Part shown: positions 5,457 through 23,398 of the stretch, piece after piece
Position numbering within the stretch: position 1 is the first letter of the stretch
How the letters are laid out: every line of letters begins with the position of its first letter
DNA from: a virus
Reading direction: 5' to 3' (one strand)
Virus record (IMG/VR): IMGVR_UViG_3300025141_000786
Location: 1-23,398 of that record
DNA length: 23,398 nucleotides
The notes under the pieces: generated by a model
Seen by the model: the letters and a program-made list of their open reading frames with translations, nothing else
What the model was told of the DNA's origin: nothing
Database searches by the model: none
Made by a program: the position numbers and the translations under genes

Positions 5457-8400
5457 ATGCCAGTAGATAGTTTTAGATTTGTATCGCCGGGCGTTTTTAT
5501 TAACGAAATCGATCAGTCCCAGGTCGCCCGCTCAAGCGGTGGCGCATCCGGACCCGTTATTTTTGGAGTGGCCGAAAAAGGGCCAGCGCTGATCCCCACC
5601 AAAATTTCAAGTTTTTCAGAGTTTGTAAGCACATTCGGTAACCCCATCCCGGGCTCAGACGGTGTTTCGGATGTGTGGAGAATGGGCAACTATTCTAACC
5701 CCACATACGGTGCATATGCCGCCCAAGCATATCTTGCTAATGGGGGTCCTATAACCTTTGTAAGATTAGTAGGAGATCAAGACCCCGCAGGCACAGATAA
5801 AGCCGGCTGGGAAGTTGGCCAAGTCAGCGCCGGCGGTACCGCAGGAACATATGGCCTCTTCATTGCTGGAACTGGTTCTAACACCGCTGAAGGTGTTTTG
5901 GCAGCCGTTATTCACTGCAAGAACTCTGCGAGTGTTTATATTAAAGGCCGCACCATGGACTCCGGCGACTCTGCCACATATACGCTCCAGGGAGCGTTCC
6001 AGAAACCTGGATCAGTGACTTCCGCCGATGGTACCGCATGCGAATACAAGCTTCTTATCTCTAGTTCCACCACGGGCCGCACCGAGGAGACTACTTTTAA
6101 CTTTAAGCCGACAAGTGCGCGGTATATTCGAAAAGTTCTTAATACTAACCCACACTTATTAAATTCAAGCATCACACCTGCTGCAAACCTAAAGGACTAC
6201 TTTTTAGCCGAATCCTTTGATCGACTTGTAGTTGACAATGTTTCAGGCTTCGATAGTGCTACTGTAACTTCGACTAATTTGTCGGGCACATATGGGATTG
6301 TTTTGGGCCTTAGCACTGGATCCGCTTATGGTGGATATTTTAAGGGTAAGTATGAAAATCCCGCAACTCCGTGGATTGTCGGCCAGGACCTTTCTGATGA
6401 TGTAACCAACTTTGATATCAACAGCAGTGTTCAAAGGCTTTTCCGAGTGGTTTCTAAGGAGGGCGTTGAGTATGCCCAGTCTCATTTCAAAATATCCATC
6501 TCGGATGTGAAACAATCCCCCAACCCTCAGTTTGAGAACTATGGTACTTTCACCTTATTGGTAAGAGATATCCGCGATACGGATGAAAACCCGGTTATTC
6601 TTGAGCAGTATAATAATTTGAACCTTAACCCTGCATCCAACAACTTTATTGCAAAGAGAATTGGTGACAGGAGTTACGAATACGATACCACAAACCAGAA
6701 ATGGAGAGAGCTGGGACAGTACCCGGTTCGTTCTAATCTGATTCGCGTGCAGCTTGATGAAACTGTTGATAACGGTGATCATGAGGCATCTTTGCTTCCC
6801 TTCGGATTCCGCGGCGTTCCCATTTATACCCCGTTTAATCTTCAAAGCGGCTCGGCCCATGCACTAGCATACGGTCTCGATGCATCGGGATCTCTCGATA
6901 GTAAATGTATTGTAGCCTCCGGTATTTCGGGCAACCTCCCGAATCTGCGCTGGGACACTCTCACAGACGTCAGTGGAATCCCCACTGCTGCAGCCTATAT
7001 GGGCGGCTACGGCGGCTGTCAGTTCCTGACTGCCAGTCTTGCGTTCCCGGATCTCCCCCAGCGACTCTCTTCTTCAGACGGCCGCCTTAAGAAGACCACA
7101 AAAGCTTTCTTCGGTTTAACGACCAATCAAGCAGCCAACACACTGGTATTTGATGGAGTAATCAGAGATCTTGTAAGGATTAAGCCCCTTAATATCGCCG
7201 GCGCAAATGTGATTTTGAGCCCCGGGTTCTCTCTTGATGACCTAATATATGATGCGGGCGATGCTTTCCACAGCGGTTCCGATATTTTCATGTATTGTAA
7301 CGGTGTTGTGGGAACAGGAAACCCCCTAGGCGCGACTGCAGGCGGAGACGCCGGCGGCAGTAATGTTCGCCGCGGAACGCCGCAAGGCGGACGACGCGAC
7401 AACTTGTCAATGACGGCCGTGAGCAGCAGTTACCAAGAGGTTTTGATTCAGGGATTCGACAAGTTTACGATTCCCATGTATGGCGGCTTTGATGGGTTTG
7501 ATATCTTTGAGAAGAACCCCTTCAATAACGAACGAGCGCTCACTGGCGAGTCAAAGACCACGGCCGCGTCCGCGGAGTACTATACTTTAAGAAAAGCTAT
7601 AGACTCTGTGTCAGATGTAGATCAAGTCGACATCAACATGGCAGCAATGCCCGGTATTACTGATAGTCAAACTATGGATTTCTTGATTTCCATGGCAGAA
7701 GACCGAAAGGATACACTGGCAATTATTGATTTGGAAGGCGGTTATACGTCTTCGACGGAGAATACTGATACCTTCTCTGCCCGTAAGGGATCATCTGCGA
7801 ATGTTGTTACGAATGTTGAAAGCAGAGAGTTTAATTCAAGCTACGCCGCGGCCTACTACCCATGGGTTCAGATCAACGATACCACATCATCGCGCAGAGT
7901 GTGGGTGCCCCCATCCACAATCGCTCTGGGCGTCCTAGCAGCGTCGTCTGCAAAGGCAGAACTCTGGTTCGCCCCCGCCGGTTTCAACCGCGGCGGTCTC
8001 AACAATAGTTCGGCTGGTCTCGCTGTAGTAAACGTCATTGAGAAGCTTACTTCCGATCAGAGGGACAACCTTTATGAAGTAAACGTTAATCCGATTGCTT
8101 CTTTCCCGGCAGAGGGAATTGTGGTCTTTGGTCAAAAGACGCTTCAAGCGACCCCTTCGGCCCTAGATCGCATTAATGTAAGAAGGCTGATGATTTACTT
8201 GAAGAAAGAGATTAGAAAGATTGCAAACGGCATTCTATTTGATCCCAATGAGAGAGTTACATGGGATAGGTTCCTTAATCAGGTTAATCCGTTCCTGGCC
8301 TCGATCAAGAATCGTTTTGGCCTCTCGGACTATAGGGTTATTCTAGATAGTGACACGACTACCCCGGACTTAGTGGACAGAAATATCATGTATGCAAAGA

Positions 8401-8477
8401 TTCTACTGAAGCCAACCCGTGCTATCGAGTTCATAGCTCTAGACTTCGTGATTACCAACAGTGGAGTAGAGTTTTAA
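5457..8477 (+). CDS. Contractile tail sheath protein (gp18-like)
   Basis: 1006 aa. It polymerises around the tail tube and contracts to drive injection. The N-terminus is typical: SPGVFINEIDQSQV, then GPVIFGVAEKGPALIPTKI, then F..TFGNP and AAQAYLANGGPITFVRLVG (to about residue 107). A core block with VRDIRDTDENPVI and LNLNPASNNFIAKRIGD lies around 366-410. The C-terminal sheath domain starts with DINMAAMPGITDSQ (about 724) and continues with FAPAGFNRGG, INVRRLMIYLKKEI and WDRFLNQVNPFL to a terminal VITNSGVEF. T4 gp18 is 659 aa, so about 350 residues are extra; likely additions fall between 130 and 340 and between 440 and 700. The ATG is preceded by GGAGAG. I see no frameshift. Confidence 0.95.
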   Translation: MPVDSFRFVSPGVFINEIDQSQVARSSGGASGPVIFGVAEKGPALIPTKISSFSEFVSTFGNPIPGSDGVSDVWRMGNYSNPTYGAYAAQAYLANGGPITFVRLVGDQDPAGTDKAGWEVGQVSAGGTAGTYGLFIAGTGSNTAEGVLAAVIHCKNSASVYIKGRTMDSGDSATYTLQGAFQKPGSVTSADGTACEYKLLISSSTTGRTEETTFNFKPTSARYIRKVLNTNPHLLNSSITPAANLKDYFLAESFDRLVVDNVSGFDSATVTSTNLSGTYGIVLGLSTGSAYGGYFKGKYENPATPWIVGQDLSDDVTNFDINSSVQRLFRVVSKEGVEYAQSHFKISISDVKQSPNPQFENYGTFTLLVRDIRDTDENPVILEQYNNLNLNPASNNFIAKRIGDRSYEYDTTNQKWRELGQYPVRSNLIRVQLDETVDNGDHEASLLPFGFRGVPIYTPFNLQSGSAHALAYGLDASGSLDSKCIVASGISGNLPNLRWDTLTDVSGIPTAAAYMGGYGGCQFLTASLAFPDLPQRLSSSDGRLKKTTKAFFGLTTNQAANTLVFDGVIRDLVRIKPLNIAGANVILSPGFSLDDLIYDAGDAFHSGSDIFMYCNGVVGTGNPLGATAGGDAGGSNVRRGTPQGGRRDNLSMTAVSSSYQEVLIQGFDKFTIPMYGGFDGFDIFEKNPFNNERALTGESKTTAASAEYYTLRKAIDSVSDVDQVDINMAAMPGITDSQTMDFLISMAEDRKDTLAIIDLEGGYTSSTENTDTFSARKGSSANVVTNVESREFNSSYAAAYYPWVQINDTTSSRRVWVPPSTIALGVLAASSAKAELWFAPAGFNRGGLNNSSAGLAVVNVIEKLTSDQRDNLYEVNVNPIASFPAEGIVVFGQKTLQATPSALDRINVRRLMIYLKKEIRKIANGILFDPNERVTWDRFLNQVNPFLASIKNRFGLSDYRVILDSDTTTPDLVDRNIMYAKILLKPTRAIEFIALDFVITNSGVEF

Positions 8478-20512: not shown

Positions 20513-21700
20513 ATGCTTTTCCAAGCATTAGATTTAAAATCAGATTGTGTAGGGTATTATGCCAATAATGCTATAAACCCCAATTGCCCCCTTCCCTTGG
20601 AGGGAGAAACATGGGAGTTCTCCCCTCATTTACGTGGCGATCACTACGAAATAGGACAGATATACAGCCAAGGAGCGACCATTACAGCCGTTTGTCCGGA
20701 GGAGTTGAGGCAAGAATGGGAGAATATCAAGAAGACTCTCAAATCGTGCCTCAAGGCCTTTAGAACATCTCATCTATCTTTGGATGAAAATTGTTTTTAT
20801 GATGTTGTGCCTGAATACTTTCTGTATCAATACCTGGAGACAAAAAACAAGGTAACACAACATGTTTTGGATACTTACCCGCGCCCCAATAACTACGACC
20901 TTACCTATAACCTTCTAGAAATGCTTACGACGATTCGTGGACAACGCCTAAATGTTAATATTGGCTCAATTAAGCATTTGCTCACCTCTGTAAGAGGACA
21001 AAACTTTCAGCGTATGCTTCATACAGTTAAACATGTGTGCGACTATAACCCTTGGGGGACAATTACGGGCCGCTTGGCGGCAAACCCTAACAGTTTTCCA
21101 ATCCTTACAATGAACAAGGAATTTCGAGCATGCATTCTGCCAAAGAATGATTGGCTTGTGGAGCTTGATTTCAACGCAGCAGAACTAAGGACGCTATTGG
21201 CGCTAGCGGGCGTAGAACAACCGAAGAACGACATCCATGACTGGAATGTAAAGAACGTTTTTGATAGTAAGCTGACTCGAGAGGAAGCCAAGGTCAAGAC
21301 CTTCGCGTGGTTGTATTCTAGTAAGGAAAACAAGCAATTAGAGAGCCTTTATAACAAGGATTTAGTGCGAAATAAGTACTGGAATGGCTGTAAAATTGAG
21401 ACAGATTATGGTAGAATAATAGAGAACGTAGATGAGCACCATGCGCTCAATTACATCGTTCAAAGCACCACAATCGACATGGTGCATGAACAGGCTTACA
21501 AAGTCTATGAGCTTTTGAAGGGGAGAAAGAGCCACATCGCATTTCTTATTCACGACGCCGTGTATATCGACCTCGCTGATGAAGATCGAAAAGAACTTAT
21601 AAATCTCCTTGACACATTCAGGGAAACACGGTATGATATATTCAAGGTGAACGTCTCCGCTGGGAGAAACCTGGGAGAAATGAAGGAACTAAAATTATGA
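20513..21700 (+). CDS. Compact family A DNA polymerase (palm/fingers only)
   Basis: 395 aa. It carries the polymerase signature in order: GRLAANPNSFPIL (186-198, like GRLSS..PNLQNIP), motif A ELDFNAAELR (217-226, with D219, E224, R226), the O-helix pattern R256-x3-K260-x3-F264-x3-Y268, the ALNYIVQSTTIDM helix (Q317), and motif C LIHDAVYIDL (H347, D348). It ends GRNLGEM, like GxNWxEL endings of the family. Both catalytic aspartates are present, so activity is plausible. Oddities: no 3'-5' exonuclease domain; the thumb is very short; the usual Glu of HDE is Ala349; and the Gly after the O-helix Tyr is Ser. T4-like phages normally use a family B polymerase. AAGGAG (20502-20507) overlaps the stop of the structural gene before it, so both are probably translated from one message. 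Confidence 0.88.
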   Translation: MLFQALDLKSDCVGYYANNAINPNCPLPLEGETWEFSPHLRGDHYEIGQIYSQGATITAVCPEELRQEWENIKKTLKSCLKAFRTSHLSLDENCFYDVVPEYFLYQYLETKNKVTQHVLDTYPRPNNYDLTYNLLEMLTTIRGQRLNVNIGSIKHLLTSVRGQNFQRMLHTVKHVCDYNPWGTITGRLAANPNSFPILTMNKEFRACILPKNDWLVELDFNAAELRTLLALAGVEQPKNDIHDWNVKNVFDSKLTREEAKVKTFAWLYSSKENKQLESLYNKDLVRNKYWNGCKIETDYGRIIENVDEHHALNYIVQSTTIDMVHEQAYKVYELLKGRKSHIAFLIHDAVYIDLADEDRKELINLLDTFRETRYDIFKVNVSAGRNLGEMKELKL

Positions 21701-21924
21701 AGAACAAAGTGATAGATATAAACGCGGCCAAGTATCATATGCCGTCAACAACGCACTACACCGAGGGTGTCCGTGAAGTCGATGGAGTCGCAGGATTCAT
21801 CAGGAACGAACTACTTGGGGTGCTTGAGGAGACTGCCCTGGCATTTGACTACGACTACCAAGAACTGACCGTCGGAGACGTGTTGGAGTATTTGGTGGCA
21901 CGGGAAGAAGAGCGTCAGCAGTGA
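21697..21924 (+). CDS. Small protein of unknown function
   Basis: 75 aa, acidic. The start overlaps the polymerase stop (ATGA), and the stop overlaps the next start (GTGA), so it is translationally coupled on both sides. The N-terminal part is extended and His/Tyr-containing (NAAKYHMPSTTHYTEGVREV). The rest is predicted helical: GFIRNELLGVLEETALAFDYDYQELTVGDVLEYLV. AAGGA lies about 10 bases before the ATG. No family recognised. Its position suggests a role in DNA metabolism, by association only. Confidence 0.75.
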   Translation: MKNKVIDINAAKYHMPSTTHYTEGVREVDGVAGFIRNELLGVLEETALAFDYDYQELTVGDVLEYLVAREEERQQ

Positions 21925-22235
21925 ACAAGATTTACCAGAAGCTAGTCAGGGATCGTATTCCCGAAATCATTGAGGAGACCGGCAAGGAATTCTCGGTGTG
22001 CCAAGTAAAGGACGATCGCCTCAAGGACTACGCCATGAAGAAGCTTCAAGAGGAAGTTCAGGAATTCGTTGAGGACCCCTGTGCTGAAGAGGCTGCAGAC
22101 ATTATGGAGATCTTCCACTTTATCTGCGATCGCCTAGGCATCAAAGACAGCGAAATTATGGCCCAAACTACCGCGAAGCGTATTATGCGCGGCGGCTTTG
22201 ATATGGGTTTTGTTTTAGAATGGGTTGAGGACTAA
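21921..22235 (+). CDS. MazG-like nucleotide pyrophosphohydrolase
   Basis: 104 aa, about the length of a single MazG-like all-alpha NTP pyrophosphatase domain. The start YQKLVRDRIPEII (5-17) is the usual opening of this group. The metal-binding pattern EExxE...ExxD is complete: E44-E45-x2-E48 in KLQEEVQEF and E57-x2-D60 in EEAADI. RGGF near the end is also typical. Known relatives hydrolyse (d)NTPs to monophosphates; phage versions may tune nucleotide pools or alarmone levels. The start is GTG, overlapping the previous stop (GTGA). Substrate cannot be told from sequence. Confidence 0.85.
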   Translation: MNKIYQKLVRDRIPEIIEETGKEFSVCQVKDDRLKDYAMKKLQEEVQEFVEDPCAEEAADIMEIFHFICDRLGIKDSEIMAQTTAKRIMRGGFDMGFVLEWVED

Positions 22236-23092
22236 TGATAGTTGTGGGCTTAGGGAAGGCCGGCTGTAACATTGCGAAAGCTTTTTCAAAGTTTCCGCAA
22301 TATGAGACCTATGGTATAGATACAGTTCCTGAAGCAGATATCACAATTCAAAAAAGGTCAAACCACGAACAATACGATAAGCATTTTCCTAATCTTAAGA
22401 AGAAACTTAAACTTACCGATGAAGAGATTTTTGTTATTGTCGCCGGCGCGGGCAATATTTCTGGCGGAAGCCTTCGTCTTTTAGAACAGCTAAAGAACAA
22501 TAAGACAACAGTTGTTTATATTGAGGGCGACCTGAGTATCATGTCAGAAATACAAAAAAAACAAGAGAAGGTAGTTAGCAGCATCTTGCAGGAGTATGCC
22601 AGATCTGGTAAGGTAGAAAGCATTATAATGATCAGCAACTGTGAGCTGCAGAAAACCATTGGAGACATCTCCATTATTGGTTACTATGATACACTCAATC
22701 AAGCTGTGGTTAACACACTTCACATGATGAATATATTTAAGCATAGTGAACCAGTTATTGGAAATTTTATTGTACCCTCCGACCTGAGTAGGATCGCTTC
22801 TATCGGAATTGTAGACTTGCACGAGGAAGAAGAAATAGAAAAGTGGTTTTATGACTTGACAAACGTGCGTGACGTGGTATACTACTATGGTATCAACGAA
22901 GAAGACTTAAGGAACGACGGCACTTTGTTTAAAAAAATTAATAACTTTATTAAAGCTAAGGTCAATGACCGTGTCAACGTTTCGTATGGAGTATTTAAGA
23001 CCACCTATGATCAAAAATATTGTTATTGCATTCAGTATTCATCTATGGTACAATCATATAAAGAATTGATAGACGATCAGGATATTAGCTGA
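22235..23092 (+). CDS. Tubulin/FtsZ-like GTPase homologue
   Basis: 285 aa. The layout follows FtsZ: strand MIVV then glycine-rich VGLGKAGCNIAKAF (4-17, like GVGGGGGNAV), then GIDT (27-30, like the AANTD loop), then strand IFVIVAG with AGAGNISGGSLRLLEQL (70-86) where FtsZ has GGGTGTGAAPVVAE. Strand TTVVYIEGD (91-99) leads into a helix with IQKKQEKVV, then ESIIMISNCEL (128-138, like DTLIVIPNDRL), then YYDTLNQAVVNTLHMM (150-165, the central helix). NFIVPSDLSRIASIG (177-191) falls where FtsZ has its T7 loop INVDFADVR. The tubulin signature GGGTGSG is therefore altered (GAGNISGG), so nucleotide binding or polymerisation may differ. The C-terminal domain is short and no FtsZ tail peptide is seen. 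The ATG overlaps the stop of the MazG-like gene. Confidence 0.72.
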   Translation: MIVVGLGKAGCNIAKAFSKFPQYETYGIDTVPEADITIQKRSNHEQYDKHFPNLKKKLKLTDEEIFVIVAGAGNISGGSLRLLEQLKNNKTTVVYIEGDLSIMSEIQKKQEKVVSSILQEYARSGKVESIIMISNCELQKTIGDISIIGYYDTLNQAVVNTLHMMNIFKHSEPVIGNFIVPSDLSRIASIGIVDLHEEEEIEKWFYDLTNVRDVVYYYGINEEDLRNDGTLFKKINNFIKAKVNDRVNVSYGVFKTTYDQKYCYCIQYSSMVQSYKELIDDQDIS

Positions 23093-23106
23093 TCGTACTT
23101 TAACCC

Positions 23107-23118
23107 AACTATAAGGAG
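23107..23118 (+). promoter_or_regulatory. Ribosome binding site of the SSB gene
   Basis: AAGGAG at 23113-23118 lies six bases before the ATG, preceded by AACTAT as before the capsid gene. In T4, gp32 represses its own translation by binding near its start; whether the 32-base leader here is enough for that cannot be judged. Confidence 0.5.
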
Positions 23119-23124
23119 ATAAAA

Positions 23125-23398
23125 ATGGGTATTAACTTAGATAAGATGAGAGAGAAGCTCTCGTCACTACGCGGAGAAGGAAACTCCTCAAATGACACAT
23201 TCTGGCGCCCCGAGGACGGGGACCAGACTATTAGAATCGTTCCGACAGCGGACGGAGACCCCTTCAAAGAGATGTGGTTTCACTACAATGTCGAAAAGGG
23301 CGGTTTCCTATGTCCAAAGAGAAACTACAGCGACGAATGTCCTGTATGTGAGTTCGCCTCACAGTTGTGGCGCGAAGGCGCAGACAACAACGATGAGC
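23125..23398 (+). CDS. Single-stranded DNA-binding protein, gp32-like (5' part only)
   Basis: The first 91 codons are present; the gene runs off the window. gp32 coats single-stranded DNA during phage replication, recombination and repair. The N-terminus MGINLDKMREKLSSLRGEG is basic, as needed for cooperative binding in the family. It is followed by FWRPEDGDQTIRIVP (26-40), DPFKEMWFHYNV and a zinc site with H53, C63, C72 and C75 (HYNV...FLCPKRN...CPVCEFA). T4 gp32 has the same H-C-C-C zinc arrangement. The ATG with SD AAGGAG is unambiguous, and a 32-base gap separates it from the FtsZ-like gene. Confidence 0.93.
   Translation, partial: MGINLDKMREKLSSLRGEGNSSNDTFWRPEDGDQTIRIVPTADGDPFKEMWFHYNVEKGGFLCPKRNYSDECPVCEFASQLWREGADNNDE

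Follow-up and report, generated by a model that had tools for sequence, protein, structure and literature searches.

A gene of T4-type phages with a predicted tubulin/FtsZ fold carries promoter-like sequences and a covarying RNA hairpin in its 3′ end

What might a remote relative of tubulin and FtsZ do beside the replication genes of a T4-type phage, and why do its last codons show so little synonymous change? The gene in question is an open reading frame (ORF) at 22235-23092 (+ strand, ATG start, 285 amino acids) of the window, by which we mean the whole 23,398-base virus record IMGVR_UViG_3300025141_000786. A first-pass annotation, made from the letters of the DNA, had delimited this ORF, which is present as given, and had read it as an FtsZ/tubulin-like gene coupled to DNA metabolism genes. 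Phage tubulin-fold proteins are best known from nucleus-forming jumbo phages and from partition systems, and neither the present family nor the RNA hairpin at its 3′ end was found described in the open-licence papers searched. Our best explanation as a whole, to which we give a probability of roughly 0.45, is a tubulin-fold assembly protein acting at replication, the 3′ end of whose gene would serve as a control region for the single-stranded DNA-binding protein (SSB) gene and the genes that follow.

The ORF belongs to a sizeable family. Of the 62 loci that a first scan of viral contigs returned, 61 are strong relatives, in most cases over the full length and with 55-74% identity (L062 was discarded as a chance partial match), and a profile-query scan gave 168 related stretches, of which 80 were retrieved; more distant relatives, with 36-59% identity, came from a later scan aimed at the downstream RNA element. 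The principal alignment (A1, n=45) comprises the window protein and 44 of the 61 good loci, near-duplicate and partial ones having been dropped by hand, and two further alignments, A6 (n=21) and A7 (n=22), were hand-picked for diversity; the distinct sequences in all counts below are related and are not independent events. Over codons 1-252, the median ratio of nonsynonymous to synonymous substitution rates was 0.079 (range 0.044-0.134) in the 10 of 990 pairs that fell within preset limits. The ORF is real and under purifying selection. No relatives were found in species genomes or, by tblastn, in the phages collection, PhuZ phages included, and a search of the viral contigs with E. coli FtsZ returned nothing matching.

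Structure prediction carries the assignment of the fold. The AlphaFold model of the window protein, built on 45 sequences, reached a predicted local distance difference test score (pLDDT) of 87.5 and a predicted template-modelling score (pTM) of 0.88. Judged by their titles, all 50 matches listed by Foldseek against the PDB were to FtsZ, TubZ or tubulin (E 1e-12 to 1e-10), and VIA-align superimposed the model on CetZ with Z 23.5 (257 residues, 3.1 Å), on FtsZ with 22.2 and on TubZ with 21.4, aligning 257-272 residues. The best match among predicted viral structures comes from an uncultured phage and bears the name 'FtsZ' (E 3.5e-12); next came phage proteins called cell division protein, tubulin-like protein or tubulin, and some that are unnamed. 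A second model, of the divergent member L282 (40% identity to the window protein in a 21-sequence alignment, 36-38% by tblastn; pLDDT 85.8, pTM 0.86), gave Z 24.7 for CetZ, 23.4 for TubZ and 22.7 for FtsZ, and Foldseek agreed; the alignments behind the two models overlap, so that the models are not fully independent. Since the listed matches of both models to CetZ, TubZ, FtsZ and tubulin (Z 20.5-24.7) run along the chain and through both domains, the protein very probably has a tubulin/FtsZ fold, as the first-pass annotation had proposed.

Several results of sequence comparison weigh against this assignment. Pfam Tubulin (PF00091) scored 16.5 bits on the window protein against a cut-off of 33 (E 0.011), and this was the best value for any tubulin profile among the 45 members, none of which passed; PF00091 was over its cut-off in 0 of 14 records and matched 3 of the 45 members at E up to 1. 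The NCBIfam ftsZ profile matched two members (best E 0.0018). By hhalign, the family aligned with FtsZ at an insignificant 1.8% and with PhuZ at a weak 56% (E 1e-4; 55% in a further run), compared with 96% for FtsZ against PhuZ; HMMER profiles built from either side gave at best E 4e-4, in tiny sequence sets. Searches of PDB sequences with phmmer and hmmsearch found nothing meaningful, and PHROGs gave nothing significant. The large distance from both FtsZ and PhuZ that had been suggested at first sight is thus borne out by these hhalign values and by the lack of tblastn matches.

The profile that did match most often was TrkA_N, an NAD-binding (nicotinamide adenine dinucleotide) Rossmann domain, which also counts against a tubulin: it was found in 34 of the 45 members, with E 4e-4 and below cut-off in the window protein, and over its cut-off (26.5 vs 23.8 bits) across the 33 residues 67-99 of L004, one of ten members scanned singly. 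An unrelated, TrkA_N-like Rossmann protein is nevertheless very improbable: the TrkA_N matches are short and lie at the T1 or T4 region, and among the 50 matches listed only tubulin-superfamily chains appear, for both models, with both programs and over both domains. The tubulin GTPase domain is itself Rossmann-like. The source of the match is window 22433-22531 (residues 67-99, strands S3-S4 around the T4 loop), which resembles a Rossmann dinucleotide site; this region may bind NAD. The first-pass annotation had named two outcomes that would speak against it; an unrelated Rossmann structure did not turn up, whereas a significant tubulin profile match is, taken literally, missing. The structure searches weigh more than the missing profile match, and on these models the family is a separate phage lineage of the tubulin/FtsZ fold, present in many metagenome-derived viral contigs and overlooked by sequence profiles.

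Given the fold, the state of the nucleotide site could be assessed from the 45-sequence alignment, loops being assigned by the order of secondary-structure elements together with the alignments. G5, L6, G7 and G10 of the T1 glycine loop are invariant (45/45) and its motif GLGxAGC is kept, and G71, S76 and G77 of the T4 loop are likewise invariant, with GxGxISG in place of the signature GGGTG[ST]G (GGGTGTG in FtsZ). The T3 stretch is shorter than in FtsZ and lacks GAG. N135 occurs in 42 of 45 members, and N155 and Q156 in all; by hand alignment we take this region to be equivalent to the guanine contacts N206 and N226 of tubulin, and the low-scoring hhalign alignment likewise pairs N135 and N155 with FtsZ Asn residues. 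Because the P-loop and the base-contact Asn residues are kept, the protein probably binds a guanine nucleotide. Of the motifs quoted in the first-pass annotation, GLGxAGC, D29, GxGxISGG, N135, NQA and the SRI region proved to be mostly conserved, while SNCEL is no family motif beyond its Asn. After helix H4, a near-invariant LQEYARSG (window 22586-22609, residues 118-125) is family-specific and was unseen by eye in the FtsZ and PhuZ alignments.

Hydrolysis is another matter. In the T7-like region R186 is invariant, residue 183 is variable (E 25, P 8, D 3, others 9) and no acid is invariant across residues 176-191, so that in the hand alignment an invariant Arg appears to stand at the usual place of the T7 catalytic acid. 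As the T3 glycine loop is gone as well, nucleotide hydrolysis is probably slow or absent; that the T7 argument depends on a hand alignment counts against this reading. The hydrolysis-deficient PhuZ mutant D198A of phage RAY formed filaments at every expression level tried (PMC10299810). By analogy, hydrolysis would be expected to be slow or absent in the present protein, and any assembly of it to give stable polymers.

The 3′ end of the gene holds a second kind of information. The tubulin-fold stop codon TGA (23090-23092) lies within the 3′ arm of a 10-bp hairpin, which is followed by an A-rich SSB leader of 24-30 nt with the ribosome-binding site. The 8-bp stem is uninterrupted in 70 of 73 distinct loci; L021 has one mismatch, and L052 and L054 have no hairpin at that place. 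In alignment A4, which holds 62 distinct stretches out of 121 hairpin-bearing loci (56 distinct sequences), both-side changes were seen in four of eight stem pairs, 99.8% of cells are paired and 0 of 500 shuffles reached the covariation score; when A4 was enlarged by L052, L054 and 18 more, both-side changes were seen in six of ten pairs. Among 22 diverse hairpins with 14 different 5′ arms, the corresponding figures are seven of ten pairs, 99.5% of cells and 0 of 500 shuffles, with 32 both-side-change cells vs at most 4 in any slid control. Covariation in this RNA element is strong, and no match for it was obtained from Rfam (four weak matches in 21600-23398, none at the hairpin); no further CGATYAR-type stem copies were found in the window or in the two long relatives G001 and G002. 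A terminator was rejected, given that no U run follows the stem and that the element is absent from the terminator scan, and a DNA-level inverted repeat is less likely since G-U pairs occur.

The hairpin also explains an apparent feature of the protein. Eight of 76 loci have the stop TAG as codon 282, and all eight keep the full stem by a compensating change in the opposite arm; because these shortened loci retain the stem in this way, selection acts on the stem and not on the peptide DDQDIS. The apparent C-terminal peptide is best read as a by-product of the hairpin. An interaction tail was rejected on the same eight loci, which stop within the peptide, and because the peptide is missing from several divergent members; readthrough or recoding of the stop codon in the TAG loci was considered and set aside. 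The annotation's remark that there is no obvious C-terminal tail agrees with this, the last five residues being disordered in the model and their conservation explained by the RNA hairpin.

To which gene the hairpin belongs could be decided from loci in which the two genes are apart. In L052 and L054 the hairpin stands before the SSB gene instead of at the tubulin-fold stop, with an inserted gene in between (resembling a DNA methyltransferase, with a DPPY motif, by eye; about 6834-7748 in L052 and about 6828-7730 in L054); the distance from tubulin-fold to SSB gene in L272 and L289 is at least 1 kb. A fixed-pattern scan found 114 stretches, 80 of them listed, and loci L167-L266, many of them in contigs already sampled, match the pattern in 99 of 100 cases, with the tubulin-fold gene upstream in 97/97 and the SSB gene downstream in 94/94 with room. 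A scan with loop and 3′ flank fixed and the common stem excluded gave 29 loci: the 12 in which all eight stem bases pair (G-U allowed) are exactly those with an SSB gene downstream, at 45-97% identity, and the remaining 17 have 0-7 stem pairs and no SSB downstream. The 12 amount to about nine distinct loci, L273 being the contig of L052 and L274/L279, L276/L291 and L282/L283 being near-identical. Since the hairpin goes with SSB where another gene separates SSB from the tubulin-fold gene, it belongs to the SSB gene leader.

What the element does is less clear. A promoter-like sequence, TTGACA-16-TATAAT or TATACT, ends 9 nt before the 8-bp stem in L272, L289, L052 and L054, which would put the hairpin at the start of the SSB transcript. 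This position would also suit an element that stabilises or processes the transcript without being an operator, which is the main alternative, though the less likely one. Against it, variation is much lower in the loop and in the 3′ flank ACTNTARCCC than in the stem, as would suit a recognised element more readily than a simple stabiliser; both pattern scans, however, had fixed loop and 3′ flank, so that their constancy is in part built in, and the comparison draws on the first-found loci together with L052 and L054. That the hairpin is a translational operator bound by SSB itself is proposed because its layout is much like that of the T4 gp32 leader, and we would put this at about even odds. 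SSB codon 2 is GGT and the leader holds CCC in 62/62 sequences (CCC preceded by A in 56 and by G in 6); in the window, ACCCA (23103-23107) and UGGGU (23126-23130) can pair across the SSB start codon. Three results weigh against the RNA part of our explanation: the CCC/GGG pairing over the start codon never varies and lacks covariation support; the measure of 'further pair types' was no better than shuffles (reached by 500/500 for A4 and for the enlarged set, by 18/500 for the 22 hairpins); and the window leader alone folds moderately better than shuffles (z -2.05, 8/200 at least as good).

Upstream of the hairpin, the coding sequence itself appears to be constrained at the DNA level. Little synonymous change was found in the C-terminal codons, with synonymous diversity at 0.22 of the whole-gene baseline in codons 261-275 and 0.39 in codons 276-285, and none of 10,000 permutations gave a 12-codon window as low as the lowest one observed. 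At the site P1, codon 208 is TTG in 82/82 sequences, vs a TTG share of 0.18 among Leu codons in codons 1-200; codon 209 is ACA in 72/82 and codon 216 TAC in 77/82, the adjacent Tyr codon 217 being split 41:41. Seventy-two of the 82 sequences match TTGACA exactly, 71 match TGGTATACT exactly and 61 match both, where codon usage would lead one to expect shares of about 0.05 for TTG-ACA and 0.02 for GTG-GTA-TAC. At P2, TGGTACAAT is kept in 76/79 and TTGCAT-17-TACAAT in 71/79. Both sites look like sigma-70 promoters with an extended -10, and a consensus scan found P1 with 11 of 12 matches. Against a promoter function stand the absence of P2 from that scan, its poor -35 hexamer and the finding of 11 promoter-like sites vs 3.8 expected from shuffles, which makes such sites common here; for these reasons the case is built on conservation and not on consensus. 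No other site matching the P2 motif equally well was found. In polA codons 291-306 (window 21383-21430), synonymous diversity is lowered too, though less strongly; this stretch contains TGGTAGAAT and might be a promoter of the MazG-like and tubulin-fold genes. Since promoter-like sequences and the SSB hairpin, neither of them noted in the first-pass annotation, both lie in the 3′ third of the tubulin-fold gene, part of the apparent protein conservation there is nucleic-acid conservation, a warning that some of the most conserved residues may owe their conservation to the promoter-like DNA and RNA structure underneath. The features are collected in Table 1.

Table 1. Positions of the tubulin-fold gene, its motifs, the putative control elements of its 3′ end and its neighbours in the window
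Feature	Position	Strand	Basis or remark
Family-A DNA polymerase gene, 395 amino acids	20513..21700	+	first of the overlapping frames polA, 75-amino-acid protein, MazG-like, tubulin-fold
75-amino-acid protein gene, no family match	21697..21924	+	present in G001 and L052; not in G002 and L054
MazG-like small protein gene, 104 amino acids, overlapping the tubulin-fold gene	21921..22235	+	weak label
Predicted tubulin/FtsZ-fold protein gene	22235..23092	+	285 amino acids; ATG overlaps the MazG-like stop codon (TAATG)
Strand S1, T1 loop and helix H1, putative nucleotide-binding glycine loop, codons 2-17, IVVGLGKAGCNIAKAF	22238..22285	+	alignment, model
T4 signature loop, codons 71-77, altered to GxGxISG	22445..22465	+	loop assigned by order of elements
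T6 to H7, codons 135-156, probable guanine contacts	22637..22702	+	alignment, hand-aligned equivalence
T7-like region, codons 176-191, GNFxxPSxLSRIxTxG	22760..22807	+	alignment
Promoter-like P1, TTGACA-16-TATACT, TGG before -10	22856..22883	+	parts of codons 208-216 nearly frozen; atypical codon choice
Promoter-like P2, TTGCAT-17-TACAAT, TGG before -10	23026..23054	+	low synonymous diversity of codons 261-275
SSB-leader RNA hairpin, AG+ACGATCAG, loop GATATTAG, CTGATCGT+(bulged A)+CT	23071..23099	+	covariation, folding
Conserved A-rich SSB leader ACTTTAACCC...AAGGAG..., including Shine-Dalgarno	23097..23124	+	leader alignment
gp32-like SSB gene, start only, running off the window	23125..23398	+	26.7 bits vs cut-off 26.8

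The gene order around the family is nearly fixed. In distinct loci with enough flank, a MazG-like gene within 60 nt upstream together with a polA-like gene within 2.5 kb upstream was found in 59/59, and the start of a gp32-like SSB gene within 120 nt downstream in 65/67, the exceptions being L052 and L054. The coupling to MazG-like and SSB genes that the first-pass annotation had noted therefore holds as synteny; the MazG assignment is weak, its Pfam MazG-like match (E 0.09) falling short of the cut-off, and the full-length SSB homologue in G001 is over its Pfam cut-off. Because the polA-like, 75-amino-acid, MazG-like and tubulin-fold frames overlap at stop and start codons, the tubulin-fold protein is probably co-produced with the MazG-like protein and, via the 75-amino-acid frame, with the polymerase. 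Downstream of SSB, the 165-kb relative G001 encodes RecA-like, 5′-3′ exonuclease, DnaB-like helicase, ribonucleotide reductase and DNA polymerase III alpha (DnaE) proteins, each over a Pfam cut-off, and from this order the tubulin-fold gene sits between a structural and a replication block.

The T4-like character of the phage, also proposed at first reading, is upheld by the window proteins, with a gp23 capsid match at E 4e-71 as well as tail sheath, tube and baseplate matches; among phage records, the capsid protein is nearest to those of Microcystis phage Mel-JY01 and Flavobacterium phage immuto, every match having less than 60% identity. The tail sheath protein at window 5457-8477 is unusually long (1006 amino acids), its sheath parts being recognisable. 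G001 carries a 1146-amino-acid bacterial-type DNA polymerase III alpha (L132:1316-4756, -) alongside the 395-amino-acid family-A polymerase, as well as a lipoprotein-like protein with an Asp/Glu-rich low-complexity stretch (L132:7511-8539, -), a possible hint of the host for which no relative was found in species genomes. No tRNA was found in G001 or G002.

The tight linkage with the polA-like, MazG-like and SSB genes fits the proposed assembly protein, and it would equally suit a nucleotide-sensing tubulin fold that does not polymerise and forms no cytoskeleton, being instead a partner or scaffold of the adjacent polymerase, MazG-like protein and SSB. The loss of the T3 loop, the altered T4 and T7 and the near-invariant QEYARS loop unseen by eye in FtsZ and PhuZ alignments point the same way; we nevertheless consider it rather unlikely, as the protein has kept the two domains of the fold and almost all of the chain. 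Phages are known to encode FtsZ inhibitors, and the fold shared with FtsZ might allow the protein to cap, or co-assemble with, the host protein and so to inhibit division. Its location among replication genes and the lack of significant sequence kinship with FtsZ make such an inhibitor unlikely.

Given these observations, the assembly protein that we favour could be pictured as follows. A phage-specific branch of the tubulin/FtsZ fold would bind guanine nucleotide and hydrolyse it slowly or not at all, and would be made together with the MazG-like protein and the family-A DNA polymerase. As a best guess, it would assemble head to tail into stable filaments or short oligomers, and these might organise or position replicating phage DNA. 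The 3′ end of its gene would double as a control region for SSB and then, as in G001, for the RecA-like protein, exonuclease, helicase, ribonucleotide reductase and DnaE, with promoter-like sequences within the coding region driving the following genes and the stop-codon hairpin serving as a translational operator, most likely bound by SSB as in T4 gp32. A bolder version, which we offer as speculation and hold to be improbable, is that a hydrolysis-impaired tubulin fold has become a static replication scaffold whose frame was co-opted for promoters and an SSB RNA operator, wiring a cytoskeleton-like protein to replisome expression in an undescribed class of T4-type phages. Whether a tubulin can still polymerise when it lacks the usual catalytic acid is a question that the family puts to a natural test, and the more testable novelty is the 3′ end as a control region, including the covarying hairpin.

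Comparison with known systems places the protein apart from each of its structural relatives. Both models match archaeal CetZ (3zid, 4b45) best (Z 23.5 and 24.7, 257-258 residues, about 3 Å), at 16-17% identity, and CetZ keeps the full set of GTPase loops. TubZ shares the fold (Z 21.4 and 23.4), but its chains have 381-414 residues, whereas the phage protein has 285. FtsZ shares the fold and the order of elements; its GAG T3 loop, GGGTGTG, D209/D212 equivalents and C-terminal peptide are not found in the phage family, several divergent members of which end directly after the last strand, with no FtsZ-like C-terminal peptide after a linker.

PhuZ is a phage-encoded tubulin fold too, and by profile it is nearer than FtsZ. 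The better of the two hhalign matches and the link to replication would thus fit a dynamic, PhuZ-like spindle that moves replicating phage DNA and hydrolyses nucleotide by residues other than the T7 acid. We hold this to be quite improbable: D201 and D204, aspartates that are invariant in PhuZ, lack a conserved equivalent in the family, and searches by phmmer with phiKZ chimallin, PhuZ and E. coli FtsZ against the gene calls of G001 and G002 found nothing, within the limits that divergence sets to this test. PhuZ also differs in its T4 and T7 motifs, and it belongs to nucleus-forming jumbo phages, in contrast to the T4-type phages with gp23 found here.

For the RNA element, the closest parallel is the gene 32 operator of T4. 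In T4, gp32 acts as a translational repressor of its own gene by way of a folded 5′ element; a leader with less structure, containing UUAAA/UAAA units and the ribosome-binding site, comes next, and the 5′ part of the operator overlaps the upstream segG frame (PMC535899). The gp32-type SSB gene of the present phages is likewise preceded by a folded RNA, the folding here shown by covariation, and then by an A/U-rich stretch that holds the ribosome-binding site. The sequences are unrelated, and a T4 pseudoknot with a leader of >40 nt stands against a hairpin with an 8-nt near-constant loop and a leader of 24-30 nt; only the hairpin was predicted for the SSB leader, by programs that do not predict pseudoknots. 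Given this likeness of layout, the SSB-leader hairpin may be regarded as a second candidate for gp32-type autogenous control.

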